Source: Ruminococcus sp. (GTDB lineage: Bacteria > Bacillota > Clostridia > Oscillospirales > Ruminococcaceae). From it: 64,000 nucleotides of DNA. Under the pieces are notes generated by a model that worked only from the letters and a program-made list of their open reading frames with translations, did not search any database and was not told the DNA's origin. Below, piece after piece: positions 34,263-42,603 of this stretch (positions are counted from its first letter, which is position 1; each line of letters opens with the position of its first letter). Where the stretch lies: NCBI GenBank assembly GCA_017525915.1, contig JAFXSC010000015.1:1-64000 (forward strand), in the 5' to 3' direction. A program made the translations under genes and the position numbers.

Positions 34263-36068
34263 TCAGGATATGCCGGAACGTACAGCTTCTGTGATATATT
34301 TCCTGCGCGCCGAGAAGAAATCCTGCACTTCCCTGACAGCGAAGCTGTAATTGGAGTCTGCATAATACCCTCCGACAGAATCGCGCCAGAAGCGGTCGTA
34401 GGTATCCGTGACCATTTCACGGTATTCATCAGAAAAGGCTGCGATGGCGCTCTCAACCTTTTCATCGCTGAAAGTGTTCTCTGAGATATCAGTGAAGGTA
34501 TCATAGAACTCTTTCCGGAATCCTTCATTGCGGAGTGCCGCTTTGAGCAGGTCCGTTATGAAGCAGTCCTTATCCAGAAGTCTCGCAAAGCTGTCGTTTT
34601 CAGGCAGAGCACGTTCGTAGATGCCTGTGCTGAATTCCGTATCAAACAGGATAAAGCGCCATTTTCCGTCGGCGTAGGGATTGCTTTCGTCAATTGTCTG
34701 AGCACGCCACATCGCAGAATTAGGTGCTCCCCAATCGTAGTTGTCAATGTAGAGCTCCGTGCTGATATACTCTATGAATCCTTGCATATCAACTTGACTG
34801 CACAGTCTGGAATATGCTTCTTCGTCCGAGAAATCGGTCGATTGTATCCAGCTGCGGAGAGCCTGCCATTCGGCAAATGCCGCATCCGTTCCTTCGTCAA
34901 GAGCGTCGCGCTTGACTATACAGATATCATTTTTAGGTACTCCGTAATGTGCCTTGATGAAGGCAGCGTCGAGCTTTTCCGTCAGTTCATAGTGTCCCCA
35001 GTATTCGCCGTTTATGAAAAGTATGCAAGGCTCCATTCCCTGAGTCAGGAACTTTCTGTCTGATACGAGCGACTGGATCAGTTTGTCACGGAATCGCGTA
35101 TACATCGCATCGTTGCCGGCATTACGCAGCATGAATGAATCGAACTCCGTTATCGGTGAGCCGCTGGTCTGGCTGTTGACATTTCCGGAAAAAAGGTCAT
35201 ATCTCAGCTTGCCCGCACCGTAGTCTTTCCGTGCATAGACATTGAAGCTCTTCTGCGTATATGAGCGTGTCGCGCCGCCGTGGATACGCACTCCGATGTC
35301 CTGTGAGCAGGCAAGCTGTCCGTTCTCGAAAAACTGGACAGAAGCGCCGCGCTCCCATTCGCGTCCCTTCTGCGTATAATTGGCAGGAATAGACCATTCA
35401 GGCGTTTCCTGGTCATATTCGTCTCCGCTGAGCCACTTGTCATAGACGCTGCCGAGGACATATATGCCGGTATCGTAGTCAAACAAACTGCTTTCGTCAA
35501 TTATAAGCGATACGATCTTCACATCATCGTAGTAAGACGCCTTGCTGCTGAATCCGACAAAATATGTATTGGTAACGACTGCGCTTTGAGTTCCGTCTTT
35601 GTCAACGGCAACGGCACGGACAACATTAGCCTTATCCACCGGCGAGGAAGGCAGCTCACGGCTCACATAGCCGGCTGGCTGTGCGATGTCACTGCGGGAG
35701 CTCAGTTTATTCGGCTCAGATGATATGTCGCGTATGAGAAGCGGCTGCGTGAACTCCGGACTTTCAGCCGTTGGCGTGCTGCCGTCGAGAGTGTAATGCA
35801 CTGTGCGCCCTTCACTGGCGGTAATATCAAGGTAGAATTCTGAATCGTAGAAACCGCTTGCGGCTGAGAAAGTAATTCCTTCCGATTCAAACGGGAGTGT
35901 TTCCGTGTCCGGTTCAGCGTCCGTGGTACTGTCTGTGACTGTTTCAGCGACGGATGGCGGCTCCGACGGCTCATGCGAAGAGGAACTCTTATCTGAACAG
36001 GATACAAGAAAGATATCCGCACAGGCGAGTGCAATAAACAGTGCGGATCTGATTTTTATATTTTTCAT
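34263..36068 (-). CDS. CotH-family lipoprotein with chitobiase-like domain
   Basis: A 601-residue exported lipoprotein: lipobox LVSCSDKS (Cys about 24), Ser/Thr/Glu-rich linker, a chitobiase C-terminal-like fold (about 65-125; TASEGRTVHYTLDGSTP) and a CotH kinase-like domain (about 175-600) with VSLIIDESSLFDYD, GVRIHGGATRSYTQKSF and FILFDTEFSTG. CotH proteins are atypical protein kinases of spore coats; in fibrolytic ruminococci they occur in surface and cellulosomal proteins, where their role is not settled. CAGGAG precedes the ATG. A second CotH protein, with a dockerin, lies at 55493. Confidence 0.9.
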   Translation of the reverse strand: MKNIKIRSALFIALACADIFLVSCSDKSSSSHEPSEPPSVAETVTDSTTDAEPDTETLPFESEGITFSAASGFYDSEFYLDITASEGRTVHYTLDGSTPTAESPEFTQPLLIRDISSEPNKLSSRSDIAQPAGYVSRELPSSPVDKANVVRAVAVDKDGTQSAVVTNTYFVGFSSKASYYDDVKIVSLIIDESSLFDYDTGIYVLGSVYDKWLSGDEYDQETPEWSIPANYTQKGREWERGASVQFFENGQLACSQDIGVRIHGGATRSYTQKSFNVYARKDYGAGKLRYDLFSGNVNSQTSGSPITEFDSFMLRNAGNDAMYTRFRDKLIQSLVSDRKFLTQGMEPCILFINGEYWGHYELTEKLDAAFIKAHYGVPKNDICIVKRDALDEGTDAAFAEWQALRSWIQSTDFSDEEAYSRLCSQVDMQGFIEYISTELYIDNYDWGAPNSAMWRAQTIDESNPYADGKWRFILFDTEFSTGIYERALPENDSFARLLDKDCFITDLLKAALRNEGFRKEFYDTFTDISENTFSDEKVESAIAAFSDEYREMVTDTYDRFWRDSVGGYYADSNYSFAVREVQDFFSARRKYITEAVRSGIS

Positions 36069-36934: not shown

Positions 36935-38620
36935 ATGAGAAAGCACAAAACACTGAAACGCACAGCAGCAGGAATGCTCGCGGCGGCAATCATCGTCGGA
37001 GGAATGCCGGCAACGACGGATAATCTGCTTTCAGGAAAAGCAGGCATGACAGCTAATGCACAGTCAGCTGTGGGTAATCCCCTCGGTTTCTGGGAAACTA
37101 CGGACTTTTATTCGAGCGAGACAATCTTTTCTGATATTGATATTGTCGATAACGCAGAGGTCAATATCGGTAAATCGGCCAAATGCTGCATAACTGTCAA
37201 AGGAAACCTCTCAGTCGGTGCGGCTAAGCTGATTATCCACGATGGTTCTTACCTTATAGTTACCGGCAGCCTGACTCTCGGAAAGAACAGTCAGCTTGTA
37301 TGTGAAGGCAATGCTAAGGTAATTCTGAACGGTGAAGAAATTTACGTATCACCGTCAGCAAGTTATAGCGAGGACGATTGGGTCGGAACATCACTTACTG
37401 ACCTTGAGTATATACCTGACCTTGTTCCCGGAAAGGATTATTTCAGATCGAACGGTGTGTACTACTCATTCGACGGCTCGATGTTCTCAAAGATCACCGA
37501 AAACTCAAAGACAAAGCGCCTCAAGCAGCTCTGCACGGATTCATATGAAGGATACAGCGCAAAGATCAGTCCTGCCGCTAAAGAAATCCTTTCAACTTGC
37601 AGAACAAACTACACTGTTCCGCAGTCCTTGATCGGCTATTGCATTGACGGTGAAACCTGTGATGAAATGGTGCTTGCATCCAGACCATATAATTCTTCTT
37701 TTGGTGCTACTGCAAAGTTGAAAAGTGATCTTAATGCATTCAAGAGATGCGGTGCATTCTACATAGTGACAGAAGAGGAAGCTAAAACAGTAGTAGCTGC
37801 TCCTGTCTTCAAAAGTGCATCTGTTAATGTCGGCAATGATCTTAAGCTGTACTTCGCATTCTCAGATGTTACTGCCGAAACAGTCGGCAATTTCAAAGTG
37901 GTTCTCACAGGTGAATGTGAAGAAAACGGAATTGCACAGACAATTACCGCAGACAAGGATTTCGGATATGTTGTTACTGCAACGATCACCCCGAATAACA
38001 TGAATGAGGTCATCACCGGCAAGATATACTACAATGACATTGATGTCGGCATCGACTTCTCATATTCCGTAGCGCAGTATCTCACTGCACTGTACAACAA
38101 GAGTACCGCGCTGAGCCCTATCGTCGAAACCATTCAGTTCTATGGCAAAACTTCTGCTAACTACTTTGACGGCAAGAATAATAACATCAGTTCAGATGTT
38201 GAAAAATACATGAGTGAGTACAAGCTTACCCCTGATAAGGCTGCTGCCACACTTGCTGATTATGCACCGAACTACACCACAGACGAAGCTAAGCTCTCAC
38301 TTGTACTCAATTCTACTGTTGCTATGAGATTTTATCTTGCTGGTCTCCCCGACGGCTATGAGGTGAAGAATTCTCAGGGTGAGGTAGTTTATACTGCTAA
38401 AAAGGGAAAGAACGGCGTGTTTATTGAGATTCCCGGATGTACACCTCTCGGAATGCATAATACTATAAGCTTAGGCAAGTACAAGATGAGCTGTATGACA
38501 TGGGTATACCGTGTACTTACTGATCCGACCCTTTACAGCAATCAGAAGACACGCGATCTGGCTGTAAGTCTCTACGCTTACCAGCAGTCAGTATACGACT
38601 ATGTTCATAAGAACAACTAA
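36935..38620 (+). CDS. Large secreted protein paired with a micro-peptide, unknown function
   Basis: A 561-residue exported protein with signal peptide (1-45, MRKHKTLKRTAAGMLAAAII). Residues about 55-140 are a repetitive beta-rich region (AKCCITVKGNLSV, LIVTGSLTLGKNSQLVCEGN) that suggests a beta-helix. The last about 275 residues (from about 285) align collinearly with the C-terminal part of the protein at 39318: a pattern of AVAQYLTALY, then IVETIQFYG, then VLNSTVAMRFYLAGL, and near the end LAVSLYAYQQ. No catalytic motif seen. AAGGAGG precedes the ATG. The 37-residue peptide gene follows 23 nt after the stop. Confidence 0.75.
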   Translation: MRKHKTLKRTAAGMLAAAIIVGGMPATTDNLLSGKAGMTANAQSAVGNPLGFWETTDFYSSETIFSDIDIVDNAEVNIGKSAKCCITVKGNLSVGAAKLIIHDGSYLIVTGSLTLGKNSQLVCEGNAKVILNGEEIYVSPSASYSEDDWVGTSLTDLEYIPDLVPGKDYFRSNGVYYSFDGSMFSKITENSKTKRLKQLCTDSYEGYSAKISPAAKEILSTCRTNYTVPQSLIGYCIDGETCDEMVLASRPYNSSFGATAKLKSDLNAFKRCGAFYIVTEEEAKTVVAAPVFKSASVNVGNDLKLYFAFSDVTAETVGNFKVVLTGECEENGIAQTITADKDFGYVVTATITPNNMNEVITGKIYYNDIDVGIDFSYSVAQYLTALYNKSTALSPIVETIQFYGKTSANYFDGKNNNISSDVEKYMSEYKLTPDKAAATLADYAPNYTTDEAKLSLVLNSTVAMRFYLAGLPDGYEVKNSQGEVVYTAKKGKNGVFIEIPGCTPLGMHNTISLGKYKMSCMTWVYRVLTDPTLYSNQKTRDLAVSLYAYQQSVYDYVHKNN

Positions 38621-38643
38621 TTTAGCGGAAGGAGCAGCCTGTT

Positions 38644-38757
38644 ATGAAGGAAAAATACATTGAACCCGAGATAGGGATAGTTGAGTTTGATAACGAGGAT
38701 GTCATCACAACAAGTGATACTACCCTCAATCCCAAGACTGAAACAGAACTGGTGTGA
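38644..38757 (+). CDS. Micro-peptide with EFDNEDVITTS leader-like motif (37 residues)
   Basis: The 37-residue product begins MKEKYIEPEIGIVEFDNEDV and continues ITTSDTTLNP. The ATG has AAGGAG at ideal spacing (38629-38634), and the stop is followed by a hairpin (38766-38790). It is almost identical up to ITTS with the 36-residue peptide at 41007, then diverges. This conserved-N, variable-C pattern resembles a peptide with a leader and a core, but no modifying enzyme is in the window. It lies just behind the 561-residue protein gene. Too short for most gene finders. Confidence 0.8.
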   Translation: MKEKYIEPEIGIVEFDNEDVITTSDTTLNPKTETELV

Positions 38758-38765
38758 TCAATAAT

Positions 38766-38790
38766 GCAGGCAGCTATAACGGCTGCCTGC
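38766..38790 (+). terminator. Hairpin after the first micro-peptide gene
   Basis: GCAGGCAGC pairs with GCTGCCTGC around a 7-nt loop (38775-38781). There is no T run, so it may be an attenuator or a weak terminator. Confidence 0.4.
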
Positions 38791-38813
38791 AATTCTGCGT
38801 AAAAGGAGACATT

Positions 38814-39206
38814 ATGAAAAGACTTATTCCCCTCCTGCTGCTTTCATTCATGATGCTGACTTCCTGCAACGGCGGCGGAAGCAGTTCATCCGGCAGCACT
38901 TCCTTGCCATCGGAAGCAACAGAGACCGTCACTGCTCAGGCTGAAACCGACCCGGTATCGACTGAAAGCAGTACGACAAAAGTATCAGCGACTTCCGAAG
39001 CAGCTACGACTGCCAGCACAGAAGCTGAAACAGCAGCAGCTACGGAAGCTGCTTCCACTCAGCCTGCCGCAACCGAAGCGTACAGACTTCCAGTTACCGA
39101 AGCACCGACCGAAACCGCAAGCGCTGCCGGTACCACTCACAACTACGGTGATGTGACGATAAACGATGACGGTTCTATAACGCTCCCGCTCATACCGATA
39201 GATTGA
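38814..39206 (+). CDS. Small Thr/Ser/Ala-rich lipoprotein
   Basis: A 130-residue lipoprotein: signal peptide ending in lipobox MMLTSCNGG (Cys about 20), a low-complexity stretch of Thr, Ser, Ala and Glu (about 25-105), and a short C-terminal tail DVTINDDGSITLPLIPID. The low-complexity region probably projects the tail from the surface. AAGGAG precedes the ATG, and a strong terminator follows. Function unknown. It lies between two large-protein/peptide pairs. Confidence 0.75.
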   Translation: MKRLIPLLLLSFMMLTSCNGGGSSSSGSTSLPSEATETVTAQAETDPVSTESSTTKVSATSEAATTASTEAETAAATEAASTQPAATEAYRLPVTEAPTETASAAGTTHNYGDVTINDDGSITLPLIPID

Positions 39207-39231
39207 TATTGCCGGTGAAACGGCACACAGA

Positions 39232-39270
39232 ACAGTCAGCTGCGAATAATAGCGCAGCTGGCTGTTTTTT
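39232..39270 (+). terminator. Strong terminator after the small lipoprotein gene
   Basis: ACAGTCAGCTGCG pairs with CGCAGCTGGCTGT (one G-T pair), 7-nt loop, followed by TTTTTT. Confidence 0.9.
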
Positions 39271-39317
39271 CAATAACGGAGAATTGCTGTTCCGGCGATA
39301 TTCCATAAATATATCGC

Positions 39318-39346
39318 TTGACAAAAATGGCTGTATGTGGTAAATT
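39318..39346 (+). promoter_or_regulatory. Promoter-like element, TTGACA-17-TAAATT
   Basis: TTGACA at 39318-39323, 17 bp, TAAATT at 39341-39346. It overlaps the first codons of the frame at 39318, so transcription from it would start inside that frame. This suggests that the start of the gene is missing or misplaced. Confidence 0.55.
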
Positions 39347-40988
39347 TAAACTGTGTGTCAGAAACTATGCAGGGTATGCTTCGCTTGAAAAGGTGATTTT
39401 TAAAAAGACTGATTTTTCAAATATAGTATCAATGCAGGATATGTTCCGCGATTGTAGCAATCTTTCTGAGGTCGTTAACTTAAAGGCTTCAAGCGAGAAT
39501 CTTACTACTGTTGAAAGTCTTTTTGACGGATGCTACCGCCTCAAGGAAATTAACGTAAAAGGTCTCAATACCGAGAATGTAACAAACTTCTGCCGTATGT
39601 TCATGTACTGCAAGAATATCAGGACTCTTGACCTCAGCAATCTTAAAACATCGAGTGCAACGGATATGAGCTGGATGTTTGATTATTGTGCTTCGCTTGT
39701 TTCGGTAGATGTCAGCGGCTTCAATACTTCAAATGTGACAAATCTGGAGTATATGTTTGGCAGCTGTTTCAGTCTGTTCAATCTTGATCTTTCCAGTTTC
39801 AAAACAGAAAAATGCAAGAATTTCAGTGGAATGTTCAGCACCTGCAATTCTCTGCGTGAGTTAAATATCAGCAGCTTTACTGTCAGTGACGATGCAGATG
39901 TATCAGATATGTTTGAAAACTACGTCGTCTACAAAATAAAGCTGGGCTCCGGAATCAAAAAGATCACGGAAAAAATGGCTCTCCGTTCAGCACCGAAGGG
40001 CTGGGTAAATGAGAAGAATCCCGGAATAATTATAGCTAACCCCGGTGTGAATGAAAATGCTGAGTTTGAAAACAGCGGCTGCAATACCTATATCAAGAAT
40101 CCTGCATACGGCAAGATCAGCGGTATGGGCATAAATATCAATCAGGACGGCACCTTCGGCATTCGTGTCAGCGTTACTCTCCCCGACACTCTTTCCGCAA
40201 AGGAGAAGGAAAGTGCAACTATTTATGTCTATTCCAGAAACGGCTACTGCCATAGTGAACCAGAAATTCCTGTCAAGAGCGACGGAAAGGGCGGTTATTA
40301 TGTCGATTTCCGTTTGTATGCAAAGGAAATGACTGCAAGGTTGGGTGTAAGGCTCAAAATTGACGGCGAACTCGTTGATGAGGCTGGCATTTCTGCAAGA
40401 CAGTATGCAGACTATCTGCTTTCTGACCCGGTAACATACGCGAAGGAACAGAATCTTGTAAAGGCAATGCTTTGCTTCTGCGGTGCAGCACAACGTAATT
40501 TCAACTATTATTACACTGATGACAACCAGTGTGCTGACTACGGTATCAATTATTCCAGAGATAAGATAGGCACTGCAAATAGCTTTGCTGCTCCCGATGA
40601 CCTTGATGACCTCAGCTATTACGGCTCCTCGATAGTTCTCGGTTCGGGAATTGTCCAGAGACACTATTTCAGACTCAATACCGGAGATATCGGTAACTAT
40701 ACATTCATAGTTGACAAAAAGCCGGCAGTACCCACCCAGAGCGAAAGCGATGAGTCGCTCTACTATGTTGACGCTACAAAGAACGGTGCTGCTATGAAGC
40801 TGTACGACGCGTCTGAGATCAAGGCATACAAGACAAGCGAGCCTTCAAAGACTATCACATTCAATTACAGCGTTATGGATTATGTAGGTATCGCAAAGAA
40901 CAAGGGGATTTCCGGTAAAGCATTTGAAGTTATAAAGACTCTTAGCTGGCTTGCTGATGAGGCAAAGGCTTACTTTGAAACTAACTGA
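39318..40988 (+). CDS. BspA-like (DUF285) repeat protein paired with a micro-peptide, probably 5'-truncated
   Basis: A 556-residue open frame. Residues about 20-215 consist of DUF285/BspA-type repeats of about 25 residues with MFxxCxxLxxLDLSxxxTSxVTDM, e.g. NVTNFCRMFMYCKNIRTLDL and NTSNVTNLEYMFGSCFSLFN. The last about 290 residues align with the C-terminal part of the protein at 36935 (ISARQYADYLL, IVLGSGIVQRHYF, KTLSWLADEAKAYF). BspA proteins are secreted, but here there is no signal peptide and no ribosome binding site, and the frame starts in a promoter-like TTGACA. I think the 5' end has been lost. The micro-peptide gene follows after 18 nt. Confidence 0.7.
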   Translation: MTKMAVCGKFKLCVRNYAGYASLEKVIFKKTDFSNIVSMQDMFRDCSNLSEVVNLKASSENLTTVESLFDGCYRLKEINVKGLNTENVTNFCRMFMYCKNIRTLDLSNLKTSSATDMSWMFDYCASLVSVDVSGFNTSNVTNLEYMFGSCFSLFNLDLSSFKTEKCKNFSGMFSTCNSLRELNISSFTVSDDADVSDMFENYVVYKIKLGSGIKKITEKMALRSAPKGWVNEKNPGIIIANPGVNENAEFENSGCNTYIKNPAYGKISGMGININQDGTFGIRVSVTLPDTLSAKEKESATIYVYSRNGYCHSEPEIPVKSDGKGGYYVDFRLYAKEMTARLGVRLKIDGELVDEAGISARQYADYLLSDPVTYAKEQNLVKAMLCFCGAAQRNFNYYYTDDNQCADYGINYSRDKIGTANSFAAPDDLDDLSYYGSSIVLGSGIVQRHYFRLNTGDIGNYTFIVDKKPAVPTQSESDESLYYVDATKNGAAMKLYDASEIKAYKTSEPSKTITFNYSVMDYVGIAKNKGISGKAFEVIKTLSWLADEAKAYFETN

Positions 40989-41006
40989 TCGAAAGGATAG
41001 CGTAAT

Positions 41007-41117
41007 ATGGAAAAGTACATGACACCTGAACTTGAAGTAATCGAGTTCGACAATGAAGATGTTATCACTACAAGCCTGCTCACTGGCGATGATGAAATGG
41101 ACATCGTAAAGCCCTGA
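41007..41117 (+). CDS. Micro-peptide with EFDNEDVITTS motif, second copy (36 residues)
   Basis: Encodes 36 residues beginning MEKYMTPELEVIEFDNEDVI, followed by TTSLLTGDDEMDIVKP. The ATG follows AAAGGA at normal spacing, 18 nt after the large gene. It shares the YxxPExxxxEFDNEDVITTS pattern with the peptide at 38644, and the rest differs. A terminator follows at 41156. The persistence of both peptides, with changes concentrated after TTS, points to a real coding sequence. Confidence 0.8.
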   Translation: MEKYMTPELEVIEFDNEDVITTSLLTGDDEMDIVKP

Positions 41118-41155: not shown

Positions 41156-41185
41156 AACCGGAAGTCGGACTGGCTTCCGGTTTTT
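41156..41185 (+). terminator. Terminator after the second micro-peptide
   Basis: AACCGGAAG pairs with CTTCCGGTT, loop about 9 nt, followed by TTTG. Confidence 0.85.
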
Positions 41186-41358: not shown

Positions 41359-42603
41359 ATGAAAAAATTATATATGTATTCAGTTATGGCAGCAATGTTC
41401 GCAGCGGCAGTTACAGGCTGCGGGAGCAAGACAGATTCAGACAGCACTGTTCCGGTTGAAAATGACGTGAGAACAGCCGTTGTATCAGAGGAGAAGGAGA
41501 GCGCTTCGTTAGCTCAGCTTTCAAATACAAATATCGAAGAAACTGAGAAAACGACTTTCACAAAGCGCGATCTTGAGCAGACCGCAGATACAAGCGATGC
41601 TAAGTACATTACAGTGGGTGACGGCGCGACCGTTGACATCACAGCAGAGGGCGTGTACGTTATCTCCGGAACAGCCGAGGATTGCACTATCAGAGTTGAG
41701 ACTGACGAAAACTCAAAGGTGCAGCTCGTGCTCGACGGCGTAAGCGTTACAAATGCAGATTTTCCGGCAATATATGTCGTATCAGCTGACAAGGTGTTCA
41801 TAACAACGACCGACAGCGAGAATACACTCACAGTCAGCGGAGAGTTCACATCTGACGGTGAAACAAATACAGATGCGGTTATCTTCTCTAAAGACGATCT
41901 TGTGTTCAACGGCACCGGCACTCTGGATGTCACTTCTTATTACGGCAACGGCATTACTTCCAAAGACGATATGAAGATAACAGGCGGTACTTACAACGTG
42001 AAGTCAGCGCTGGACGCTTTTGAAGCAAACGATTCGATCTCCATAAGCAGCGGAACATTCAATATCACTACCAACAAGGACGGCTTCCACTGCGAGAACG
42101 ATGACGCTGATGGTACGATAACAATATCAGGCGGTACATTCAGCATCAACGGCAGAAGCGACGGTATTCAGGCTTGCGCTCTGCTCCGGATAGACGGCGG
42201 CACATTCGATATCACAGCAGCAGAAGGTTTTGAAGCAACATATATACTCATCAATGACGGAGACATAAATATCTATGCGACCGATGACGGAATTAATGCT
42301 TCAACAGGTACAGATGCCTGTGAAACTGCTATCGAGATAAACGGCGGAAATATCAATGTTGAGGTCGGTCAGGGCGACACGGACGCTATCGACTCCAACG
42401 GCTCGATTTATGTGAACGGCGGCGCGATTAATGTCACAGCTCAGATGTCATCATTCGACTATGACAGAACGGCAGAATTCAACGGCGGCACTATCATAAT
42501 CAACGGTACAGAGGTCTCCGAGATACCTCAGAGCATGATGGGCGGCGGTATGCGCGGCGGAATGAATGGCGGAATGAATAGTGGCAGAGGCGGCAGGTTC
42601 TGA
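41359..42603 (+). CDS. Cthe_2159-like carbohydrate-binding beta-helix lipoprotein (DUF4353)
   Basis: A 414-residue exported lipoprotein with lipobox AAVTGCGSK (Cys about 21). From about residue 75 it is a right-handed beta-helix with short repeats: TVDITAEGVYVISGTAEDCT, VLDGVSVTNADFPAIYV, GTISGGTFNI-type rungs, and GDINIYATDDGINAS. This matches the Cthe_2159 (DUF4353) family, whose founding member binds cellulose and polygalacturonate. The C-terminus is Gly/Met-rich (MMGGGMRGGMNGG). AAGGAG precedes the ATG. Next to it are remnants of an apbE/FMN-binding gene. In related genomes DUF4353 and CotH proteins often occur in the same organisms, as here. Confidence 0.88.
   Translation: MKKLYMYSVMAAMFAAAVTGCGSKTDSDSTVPVENDVRTAVVSEEKESASLAQLSNTNIEETEKTTFTKRDLEQTADTSDAKYITVGDGATVDITAEGVYVISGTAEDCTIRVETDENSKVQLVLDGVSVTNADFPAIYVVSADKVFITTTDSENTLTVSGEFTSDGETNTDAVIFSKDDLVFNGTGTLDVTSYYGNGITSKDDMKITGGTYNVKSALDAFEANDSISISSGTFNITTNKDGFHCENDDADGTITISGGTFSINGRSDGIQACALLRIDGGTFDITAAEGFEATYILINDGDINIYATDDGINASTGTDACETAIEINGGNINVEVGQGDTDAIDSNGSIYVNGGAINVTAQMSSFDYDRTAEFNGGTIIINGTEVSEIPQSMMGGGMRGGMNGGMNSGRGGRF

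Follow-up and report, generated by a model that had tools for sequence, protein, structure and literature searches.

Micro-genes behind large-protein genes in a Ruminococcus genome probably encode a scattered set of precursors of the linear polyphosphorylated peptide type

The window analyzed here comprises 64,000 nucleotides (nt) of Ruminococcus sp. DNA (GenBank assembly GCA_017525915.1, contig JAFXSC010000015.1, positions 1 to 64,000 of the forward strand) and contains two micro-genes, each lying shortly behind a gene for a large protein. An initial annotation, made from the letters alone, had described these two micro-open reading frames (ORFs) as having good ribosome-binding sites and a shared N-terminus, and had likened their products to precursors of ribosomally synthesized and post-translationally modified peptides (RiPPs). 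Both ORFs and their spacing were confirmed by our analysis, and both are preceded by Shine-Dalgarno-like sites. The likeness to RiPP precursors was also borne out and could be narrowed: judged by sequence, the two micro-peptides are in all likelihood precursors of the linear polyphosphorylated peptide (LPP) type and part of a set scattered over the whole genome. The two genes are:

38644..38757, + strand: predicted LPP-type precursor gene 1, 37 residues; leader and TTS motif with the invariant Ser, then tail DTTLNPKTETELV; 23 nt past the upstream gene
41007..41117, + strand: predicted LPP-type precursor gene 2, 36 residues; leader and TTS motif with the invariant Ser, then tail LLTGDDEMDIVKP; 18 nt past the upstream gene

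With the second peptide as query, the own genome (67 contigs, 3.09 Mb) yielded 12 places that encode precursor relatives, the window pair included, so that the similarity of the two N-termini is far above chance. The family pattern is a conserved 20-residue N-terminus, YxxPExEIxxFDxEDVITTS, followed by a variable, usually acidic tail. The leader is kept in all 12 copies, and the tails differ except for two similar pairs (DTSGNPAPELPEIPDVG with NTSGNPAPELPEIPDNNY, and TILDDDK with TLLEDDKLK). Within the genus sample, 35 of 60 genomes (the own genome included) had matches at E <= 0.1, at 133 places in total and with up to 14 scattered precursors in one genome; within the family sample, matches were found in 31 of 297 genomes and 16 of 126 genera. 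A scan of named genomes gave 238 candidates, the best 80 of which were retained (79 loci), many of them from Ruminococcus flavefaciens, other Ruminococcus or Oscillospiraceae metagenome-assembled genomes (MAGs). R. flavefaciens strain ND2009, for instance, has precursors as well as the enzyme cluster described below. One contig labelled Alistipes senegalensis (L171) carries a Ruminococcus-type locus much like L148 and is probably a mis-binned MAG contig. Pfam and NCBIfam searches with both micro-peptides returned only one sub-threshold Pfam match (E 0.056), a PDB profile search with them returned no match even at E 10, and none of the PubMed Central papers listed by searches for the family was recognized as describing it.

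Precursors were collected by pattern scans of loci L042-L055 and L087 upward, with the short loci L001-L041 and L056-L086 set aside, and micro-genes identical in both sequence and 5' context were counted once. A strict pattern requiring Pro yielded 100 precursors and a relaxed one 113; these are different sets, and the strict one missed a Cys-tailed branch described below. The residue that ends the motif was Ser in 113/113 precursors, although the pattern permitted S, T, A or G at this position. Of 95 distinct leader-tail combinations, 24 have a tail devoid of Ser, Thr and Tyr, so the TTS motif holds the sole acceptor site common to all precursors. Tyr and Pro were present in 22/22 sequences of an alignment (A1) chosen with a Pro-requiring pattern; under the relaxed pattern, the Pro position of YxxP was occupied by P in 92 and by A in 12 of 104 twenty-letter matches. 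The tails are short (6 to 22 residues, median 12) and acidic (295 acidic versus 41 basic residues), and none of the 98 distinct strict-set members has a Cys there.

The micro-peptide frames were checked for purifying selection, as the initial annotation had proposed. Across the 20-codon leader, the proportions of synonymous and nonsynonymous differences were 0.46 (pS) and 0.09 (pN), and the nonsynonymous-to-synonymous rate ratio (dN/dS) was ∼0.13 (47 independent pairs from 98 distinct micro-genes), a value biased downward by the use of a protein pattern to select the micro-genes. In the tail, which the pattern leaves unconstrained, dN/dS was ∼0.42 (10 pairs of equal tail length). Short and intergenic as they are, these frames are thus almost certainly not chance or non-coding ORFs, a reading refuted by the selection on the leader, by the good ribosome-binding sites and by the recurrence of the family at 133 places in 35 genus genomes and among 238 candidates in the scan of named genomes.

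The initial annotation had stated that no modification enzyme lies near the micro-genes. This is correct for their surroundings in the window, but an enzyme set sits elsewhere in the same genome, on contigs C42, C41 and C32, and adjoins precursors in relatives. An HprK-like kinase (K; C42:368150-368878, with an invariant P-loop), a signal-peptidase-like protease (S) and an exporter (D; frame open over 588 codons) lie together on C42. A RiPP recognition element (RRE; B) and a nucleotidyltransferase (N) are located on C41, where a precursor copy is followed by the PqqD-type RRE and the PF14907 (NTP_transf_5) nucleotidyltransferase; a second N is found on C32, and PF14907 scored over its cut-off at both places. 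PF05402, the PqqD-type RRE family, exceeded its cut-off at C41 beside the precursor and also at C37. The latter RRE gene (L054:9134-9879) stands directly behind a lipoprotein gene ending GGTIELPEIPL, after a TraB/PrgY/gumN-family gene, and no precursor or kinase was seen in that stretch. For the putative protease, Ser is conserved in 8/8 alignment rows with a complete start and His and GDN in 12/12; an intact ORF lies at L189:10879-11319, the TIGR02228 match of a relative remained under its cut-off, and the PDB gave weak SEC11 matches (E 0.02 to 0.09). No peptidase family appeared among the Pfam matches of a relative's exporter.

The same five genes, K, B, S, D and N, recur in the RRE loci that we fetched, accompanied by a methyltransferase in three and by a radical S-adenosylmethionine (SAM)/SPASM enzyme in four. 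These neighborhoods represent 20 of 46 genus places and were picked by eye, largely for a nearby precursor, so the cluster frequencies are not unbiased. By profile annotation, 34 fetched loci contain K, two of which duplicate others; among the 32 left, 28 have a precursor within 9 kb (on the other strand in L102), and four (L104, L105, L106 and L189) do not. The gene order was K-B-S-D-N in 18 of the 34 K loci, a precursor being permitted in between, and B-N-K-S-D in 5, while the other 11 were cut by contig ends or variable. With the precursor (A) included, A-K-B-S-D-N was the commonest form in relatives.

Kinase and precursors also occur together across genomes, in counts that are independent of the by-eye choice of RRE loci. 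In the genus, with the own genome excluded, a full-length K was present in 29/34 precursor-positive versus 0/25 precursor-negative genomes (p = 5e-12), and the negative genome G009 had merely a 42-residue K match; the corresponding figures for the RRE were 29/34 and 5/25 (p = 6e-7). In the family sample, K was found in 29/31 positive versus 14/266 negative genomes (p = 2e-27), and in 26/28 versus 14/264 when five listed genomes of the window's own genus were removed; all of these p values ignore relatedness. A single enzyme set, located away from the two micro-genes, probably matures all the precursors of the own genome.

A branch of the family suggests that the same leader is coupled to a second kind of chemistry. 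Of the precursors with a radical SAM/SPASM-like gene no more than 3 kb away (7 loci), 8/8 had Cys in the tail, compared to 1/105 others, with the radical SAM profile having been seeded from 4 of the 7 loci and some of the loci being closely related (L097 and L163 differ by few residues). In six of the eight tails, Cys directly follows TTS or STS. Where Ac denotes the Cys-tailed precursor and R the radical SAM gene, the order was Ac-R-K-B-S-D-N in 5/7 loci, Ac-R-K-B-S in L093 and R-K-Ac-Ac-B-S in L161. In the last of these (L161:479-3100), from a Clostridia MAG, two precursors that keep the leader but have Cys-rich tails lie in tandem, and the neighboring radical SAM enzyme is a more distant one. 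The sole Cys-tailed case among the 105 others, L177 (131-300), is a Cys-rich-tailed precursor with the same leader on a Faecalibacterium prausnitzii contig that starts 130 bases upstream of it. Since Cys tails track radical SAM genes, the tail behaves like a core suited to the enzymes encoded nearby, which lends independent support to the precursor status of the micro-peptides. The enzyme of L098, which adjoins a Cys-tailed precursor and was the sole one scanned, has its nearest named families among the radical SAM/SPASM peptide maturases (TIGR04463, Clo7bot and similar), but the matches listed for it fall under the family cut-offs and the radical SAM enzyme is here an add-on to the K-B-S-D-N cluster.

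The closest known system is that of the LPPs, published in May 2026 by Popov et al. for the Paenibacillus alginolyticus cluster lppA-K-B-S-D-N (PMC13381572). The family is defined by an SpI-type protease, a discrete RRE, an HprK-like kinase, an NTP transferase and an MsbA-like transporter, together with a YxxPxVLxHQxIxFETxxS leader and variable C-termini (PMC13381572). In-cell and in-vitro evidence exists for LppK, LppB and LppS: LppK polyphosphorylates Ser3 of the core and leaves an S3T variant unphosphorylated, LppS together with LppB cleaves after FET so that the core begins AQS, and deletion of lppN caused no detectable change in Bacillus subtilis (PMC13381572). No second LPP paper was among the literature matches listed. 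Our loci share with the LPPs the same five kinds of enzyme, in many cases in the same order, as well as the YxxP leader, the conserved N-terminus with a variable C-terminus, a conserved Ser close to where the conserved part ends and, in 58/60 genus genomes, the absence of a B2 protease scoring over the cut-off. The hosts here are of Oscillospiraceae type, and the main text of PMC13381572 contains no mention of Ruminococcus, Clostridia or Oscillospiraceae.

From this likeness we infer phosphorylation, cleavage and export of the precursors. The PqqD-type recognition protein would bind the YxxP leader, and the HprK-like kinase would phosphorylate the invariant Ser that ends TTS. The SipW/archaeal-type signal-peptidase-like serine protease would cut off the leader, and the FET/AQS site of LppA makes a cut immediately ahead of TTS plausible by analogy; aligning the Ser with Ser3 of LppA predicts cleavage at EDVI/TTS. 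Further modification of the phospho-Ser may fall to the nucleotidyltransferase, and the short linear tail would leave the cell through the MsbA-like transporter. In the own genome, enzymes from three separate places would in this way serve at least 12 scattered precursors, nine of them right behind large-protein genes.

Paeninodin- and pseudomycoidin-type lasso peptide clusters (PadeK, PsmN) have an ABC exporter in common with the clusters described here. An HprK-like kinase, a PqqD-type B1 protein and a nucleotidyltransferase are likewise shared (PMC9266682), and the YxxP...T leader pattern and the PqqD-type RRE are themselves lasso-like. That the micro-peptides would be lasso peptide precursors is very improbable nonetheless: the lasso protease B2 (PF13471) is absent from the own genome, which rules against this identity, and it scored over the cut-off in just 2/60 genus genomes (at E <= 0.001 in 4/60). 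Among the annotated cluster proteins no asparagine-synthetase-like cyclase was recognized, no genome-wide search for one having been made; the tails are linear, acidic and as short as 6 residues, and a signal-peptidase-like protease stands in place of B2. The R. flavefaciens lasso leaders given in a study of rumen lasso peptides have another sequence (PMC7533575).

Several observations weigh against assigning the window micro-peptides to the LPP type. No pathway enzyme lies beside either of them. Precursors were found with no K in 5/34 genus genomes (G005, G016, G023, G032 and G037, which are 90, 91, 66, 99 and 73% complete, respectively, with an internal stop in the sole precursor match of G032) and in 2/31 family genomes (G234 and G338), and K was found with no precursor in 14/266 family genomes. 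The kinase of a relative matched Hpr_kinase_C (E 8e-4), ScmC and hpr-ser, all under curated cut-offs. Its best NCBIfam match, ScmC of SynChlorMet (TIGR04249; E 2e-7), scored 30.7 bits against a cut-off of 125, and a PDB profile search with the kinase produced five chance-level matches (E 0.14 or worse). The best NCBIfam match of a relative's exporter, MsbA, was also under its cut-off. In the PDB, the RRE profile matched LppB (9x8z) weakly (E 0.29) and the lasso protein TfuB1 at E 1e-5. The leader consensus here, YxxPEMEIIxFDxEDVITTS, starts and ends as in the LPPs but differs in the middle, with no HQ and with FDxEDVITTS in place of HQxIxFETxxS, and the Tyr-to-Ser spacing is +19 compared to +18 in the LPP motif (PMC13381572). 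Finally, a copy on the minus strand of L101 near 6839, which is outside the 113, reads TTA rather than TTS; it has a stop inside the match and looks broken. Because of the missing HQ, the shifted Ser spacing and the weak LppB match, we file the family as an LPP variant and not as canonical LPP.

In the window, the genes that precede the two micro-genes are arranged as follows:

36935..38620, + strand: large protein 1, 561 residues; signal-peptide-like N-terminus (crude pattern); no Pfam family over cut-off
37820..38617, + strand: shared ∼270-residue C-terminal domain of protein 1; domain family with no convincing Pfam or PDB match
39318..40988, + strand: large protein 2, 556 residues; DUF285/BspA-type leucine-rich repeats (LRR), then the C-terminal domain
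40134..40985, + strand: shared C-terminal domain of protein 2

This arrangement is common. For nine of the 12 own-genome copies, a gene on the same strand that encodes a protein of 340 to 2088 residues ends at most 70 nt before the start, the exceptions being C31:88305, C26:19755 and C41:67364. The search of relatives with a table of upstream neighbors that the initial annotation had proposed gave the same picture, with 70/100 precursors lying at most 150 nt behind a protein of at least 300 residues. For this table, genes were called by a simple in-house script; an upstream gene was on the fetched DNA for 99 of the 100 strict-set precursors, on the same strand for 93, and within 150 nt for 84 of these. 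A signal-peptide-like start (crude pattern) was present in 62 of the 70 large proteins. Window protein 2 is among the 8 that lack it: its ORF (39318-40988) begins at a TTG/ATG inside the LRR/DUF285-type repeats with no good ribosome-binding site, so it is probably 5'-truncated, with the C-terminal domain and the micro-gene intact.

The last ∼280 residues of the two large proteins had been reported to align. Direct BLASTP did not support this (best E = 0.11), but iterative profiles did, over ∼270 residues: profiles started from either protein converged on the same 62/84 upstream proteins, each finding the other, at E values of ∼1e-52 to 1e-54 that come from final profiles already containing the other protein. 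The N-termini of the domain-bearing proteins vary (LRR_5, DUF285 or of unknown type). The domain itself has no convincing match in Pfam (39 members scanned; any one family matched at most one member) and one chance-level match in the PDB (E 0.8). The idea that domain and micro-peptide have been kept as a unit holds insofar as the pairing is common, but it is not obligatory: 22/84 upstream proteins, some of them lipoproteins or pathway enzymes, do not have the domain, and among the 8 full domains of the own genome (two partial matches were also found) 6 are directly followed by a precursor and 2 are not. A second type of C-terminal end, like FVVTVSSSSDI...CKLDFE, recurs in upstream proteins without the main domain (L046, L047, L112, L123, L130 and L135).

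One might explain the frequent pairing by micro-peptides that stay unmodified and assist the folding or export of the C-terminal domain, the link to RiPP enzymes being incidental. The 6 directly followed domains and the lack of pathway enzymes beside the window precursors would fit such partners. We consider this improbable, because kinase presence nearly tracks precursor presence, precursors occur inside K-B-S-D-N clusters, Cys tails occur, bar one, beside radical SAM genes only, and 22 of the 84 upstream genes do not encode the domain.

In 60 loci carrying the domain, tails tend to be more alike the more alike the domains are (r 0.54; partial r 0.49 with leader similarity controlled for; 0/2000 permutations as high). 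Leader similarity, to which the same linkage applies, shows a weaker correlation with the domain (r 0.35), but the leader is also more constrained. For pairs under 50% domain identity, the tail-domain partial r drops to 0.23.

The initial annotation had also placed a hairpin after each micro-gene, and hairpins were indeed found at both places. The first of them separates precursor 1 from a small lipoprotein gene:

38765..38791, + strand: strong hairpin between precursor 1 and the lipoprotein gene; no + strand T-run; hairpins occupy the same place in other loci
38814..39206, + strand: small lipoprotein gene, 130 residues; lipobox LTSC; S/T/A/E-rich linker; ends INDDGSITLPLIPID, a tail type found in second precursors of other loci
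41156..41182, + strand: terminator-like hairpin after precursor 2

Small lipoprotein-like ORFs recur as neighbors of the precursors, 28 of them (one in a duplicate locus) being separated from a same-strand precursor by no more than 250 nt. In precursor-lipoprotein gaps of at most 120 nt, a stem of at least 7 was present in 21/21 cases, with a median z of −4.5 and z below −2 in 19/21, compared to 44/76, −0.86 and 25/76, respectively, for control gaps of the same loci; the hairpin sequences vary from locus to locus. Also in the window, the neighboring genes encode a protein with a Cthe_2159 carbohydrate-binding domain (41359-42603) and, on the minus strand, a CotH-kinase-domain protein with a lipoprotein-like start (34263-36068).

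In part of the loci, the lipoprotein and an adjacent precursor share their tails. Where the precursor follows the lipoprotein (8 pairs), its tail resembles the lipoprotein end, with a mean score of 45.8 versus 27.2 upon permutation (1/1000 as high); scores were high in L112, L129, L131 and L135, near the permuted mean in L133, and lower in L096, L146 and L172. L129 is an example, with DKPIELPLVPLR at the end of the lipoprotein and EPIELPLVPLR at the end of the neighboring precursor. In two loci (L113:2510-2971 and L115:10148-10663), the 3' end of the lipoprotein ORF also encodes, in frame and behind a separate ribosome-binding-like site, the second precursor, so that one tail could be produced both as a lipoprotein end and as a free precursor.

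The role of the precursors is, above all, a matter of inference from these neighbors. Each mature phosphopeptide would act with the neighboring large exported protein, often together with a similar-tailed lipoprotein, as a short ligand docking on a common partner. That the peptides are dedicated partners of surface proteins in this sense can be put forward only tentatively. It is likewise possible, though doubtful, that one RiPP enzyme set provides a genome-wide finishing service for surface proteins, in which each large exported protein has its own phosphopeptide, the lipoprotein displays the same tail, and both compete for or share a docking site that controls anchoring, assembly or release. 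The evidence also cuts the other way. Joint inheritance of neighboring genes can explain the tail-domain correlation more simply than co-adaptation does. In the 27 pairs with the opposite order, the precursor first and the lipoprotein second, the mean score exceeds the permuted one by less (17.2 versus 14.5, 0/1000 as high), and the excess is carried by L095, L150, L176 and L139; the window pair itself scores 19 and is as unremarkable as most. Since the loci are related to one another, the permutation counts are not true probabilities and overstate independence.

Alternatively, the mature peptides might be secreted signals of a pheromone-like kind, or antagonists, with the link to surface proteins reflecting shared regulation and the lipoprotein acting as receptor decoy or self-protection. 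This possibility, to which we give limited credence, is compatible with LPP-type maturation and accords with the logic of leader and exporter, with the many variable tails under one conserved leader, with the patchy distribution in the family (31/297 genomes) and with the copying of the tail by some lipoproteins. It sits less well with the constant kind of partner, a single C-terminal domain in 62/84 upstream proteins; moreover, no recurring receptor or regulator gene was noticed in the neighbor tables, in which most neighbors are unannotated. For a toxin-like tag, another reading offered by the initial annotation, no supporting evidence was found.

The scattered precursors, the linkage to large proteins, the tail sharing with lipoproteins and the radical SAM/Cys branch go beyond the published LPP paper. 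Up to 14 precursors are scattered through one genome here, versus 1 to 3 per cluster in LPP, and large surface-type proteins and a lipoprotein are linked to them, where LPP has capsule loci (PMC13381572). Because many precursors lie away from the enzymes, genome mining based on clusters would probably miss them; the remark of the initial annotation on the lack of a nearby modification enzyme is a case in point. The biological role of LPPs is stated as unknown in the Discussion of PMC13381572, and the lineage described here gives a first, concrete lead, since the large-protein neighbors and the lipoprotein-shared tails make that role testable. If the peptides do act as partners of surface proteins, RiPPs would serve in these bacteria as structural or regulatory parts of the cell surface and not as diffusible natural products.

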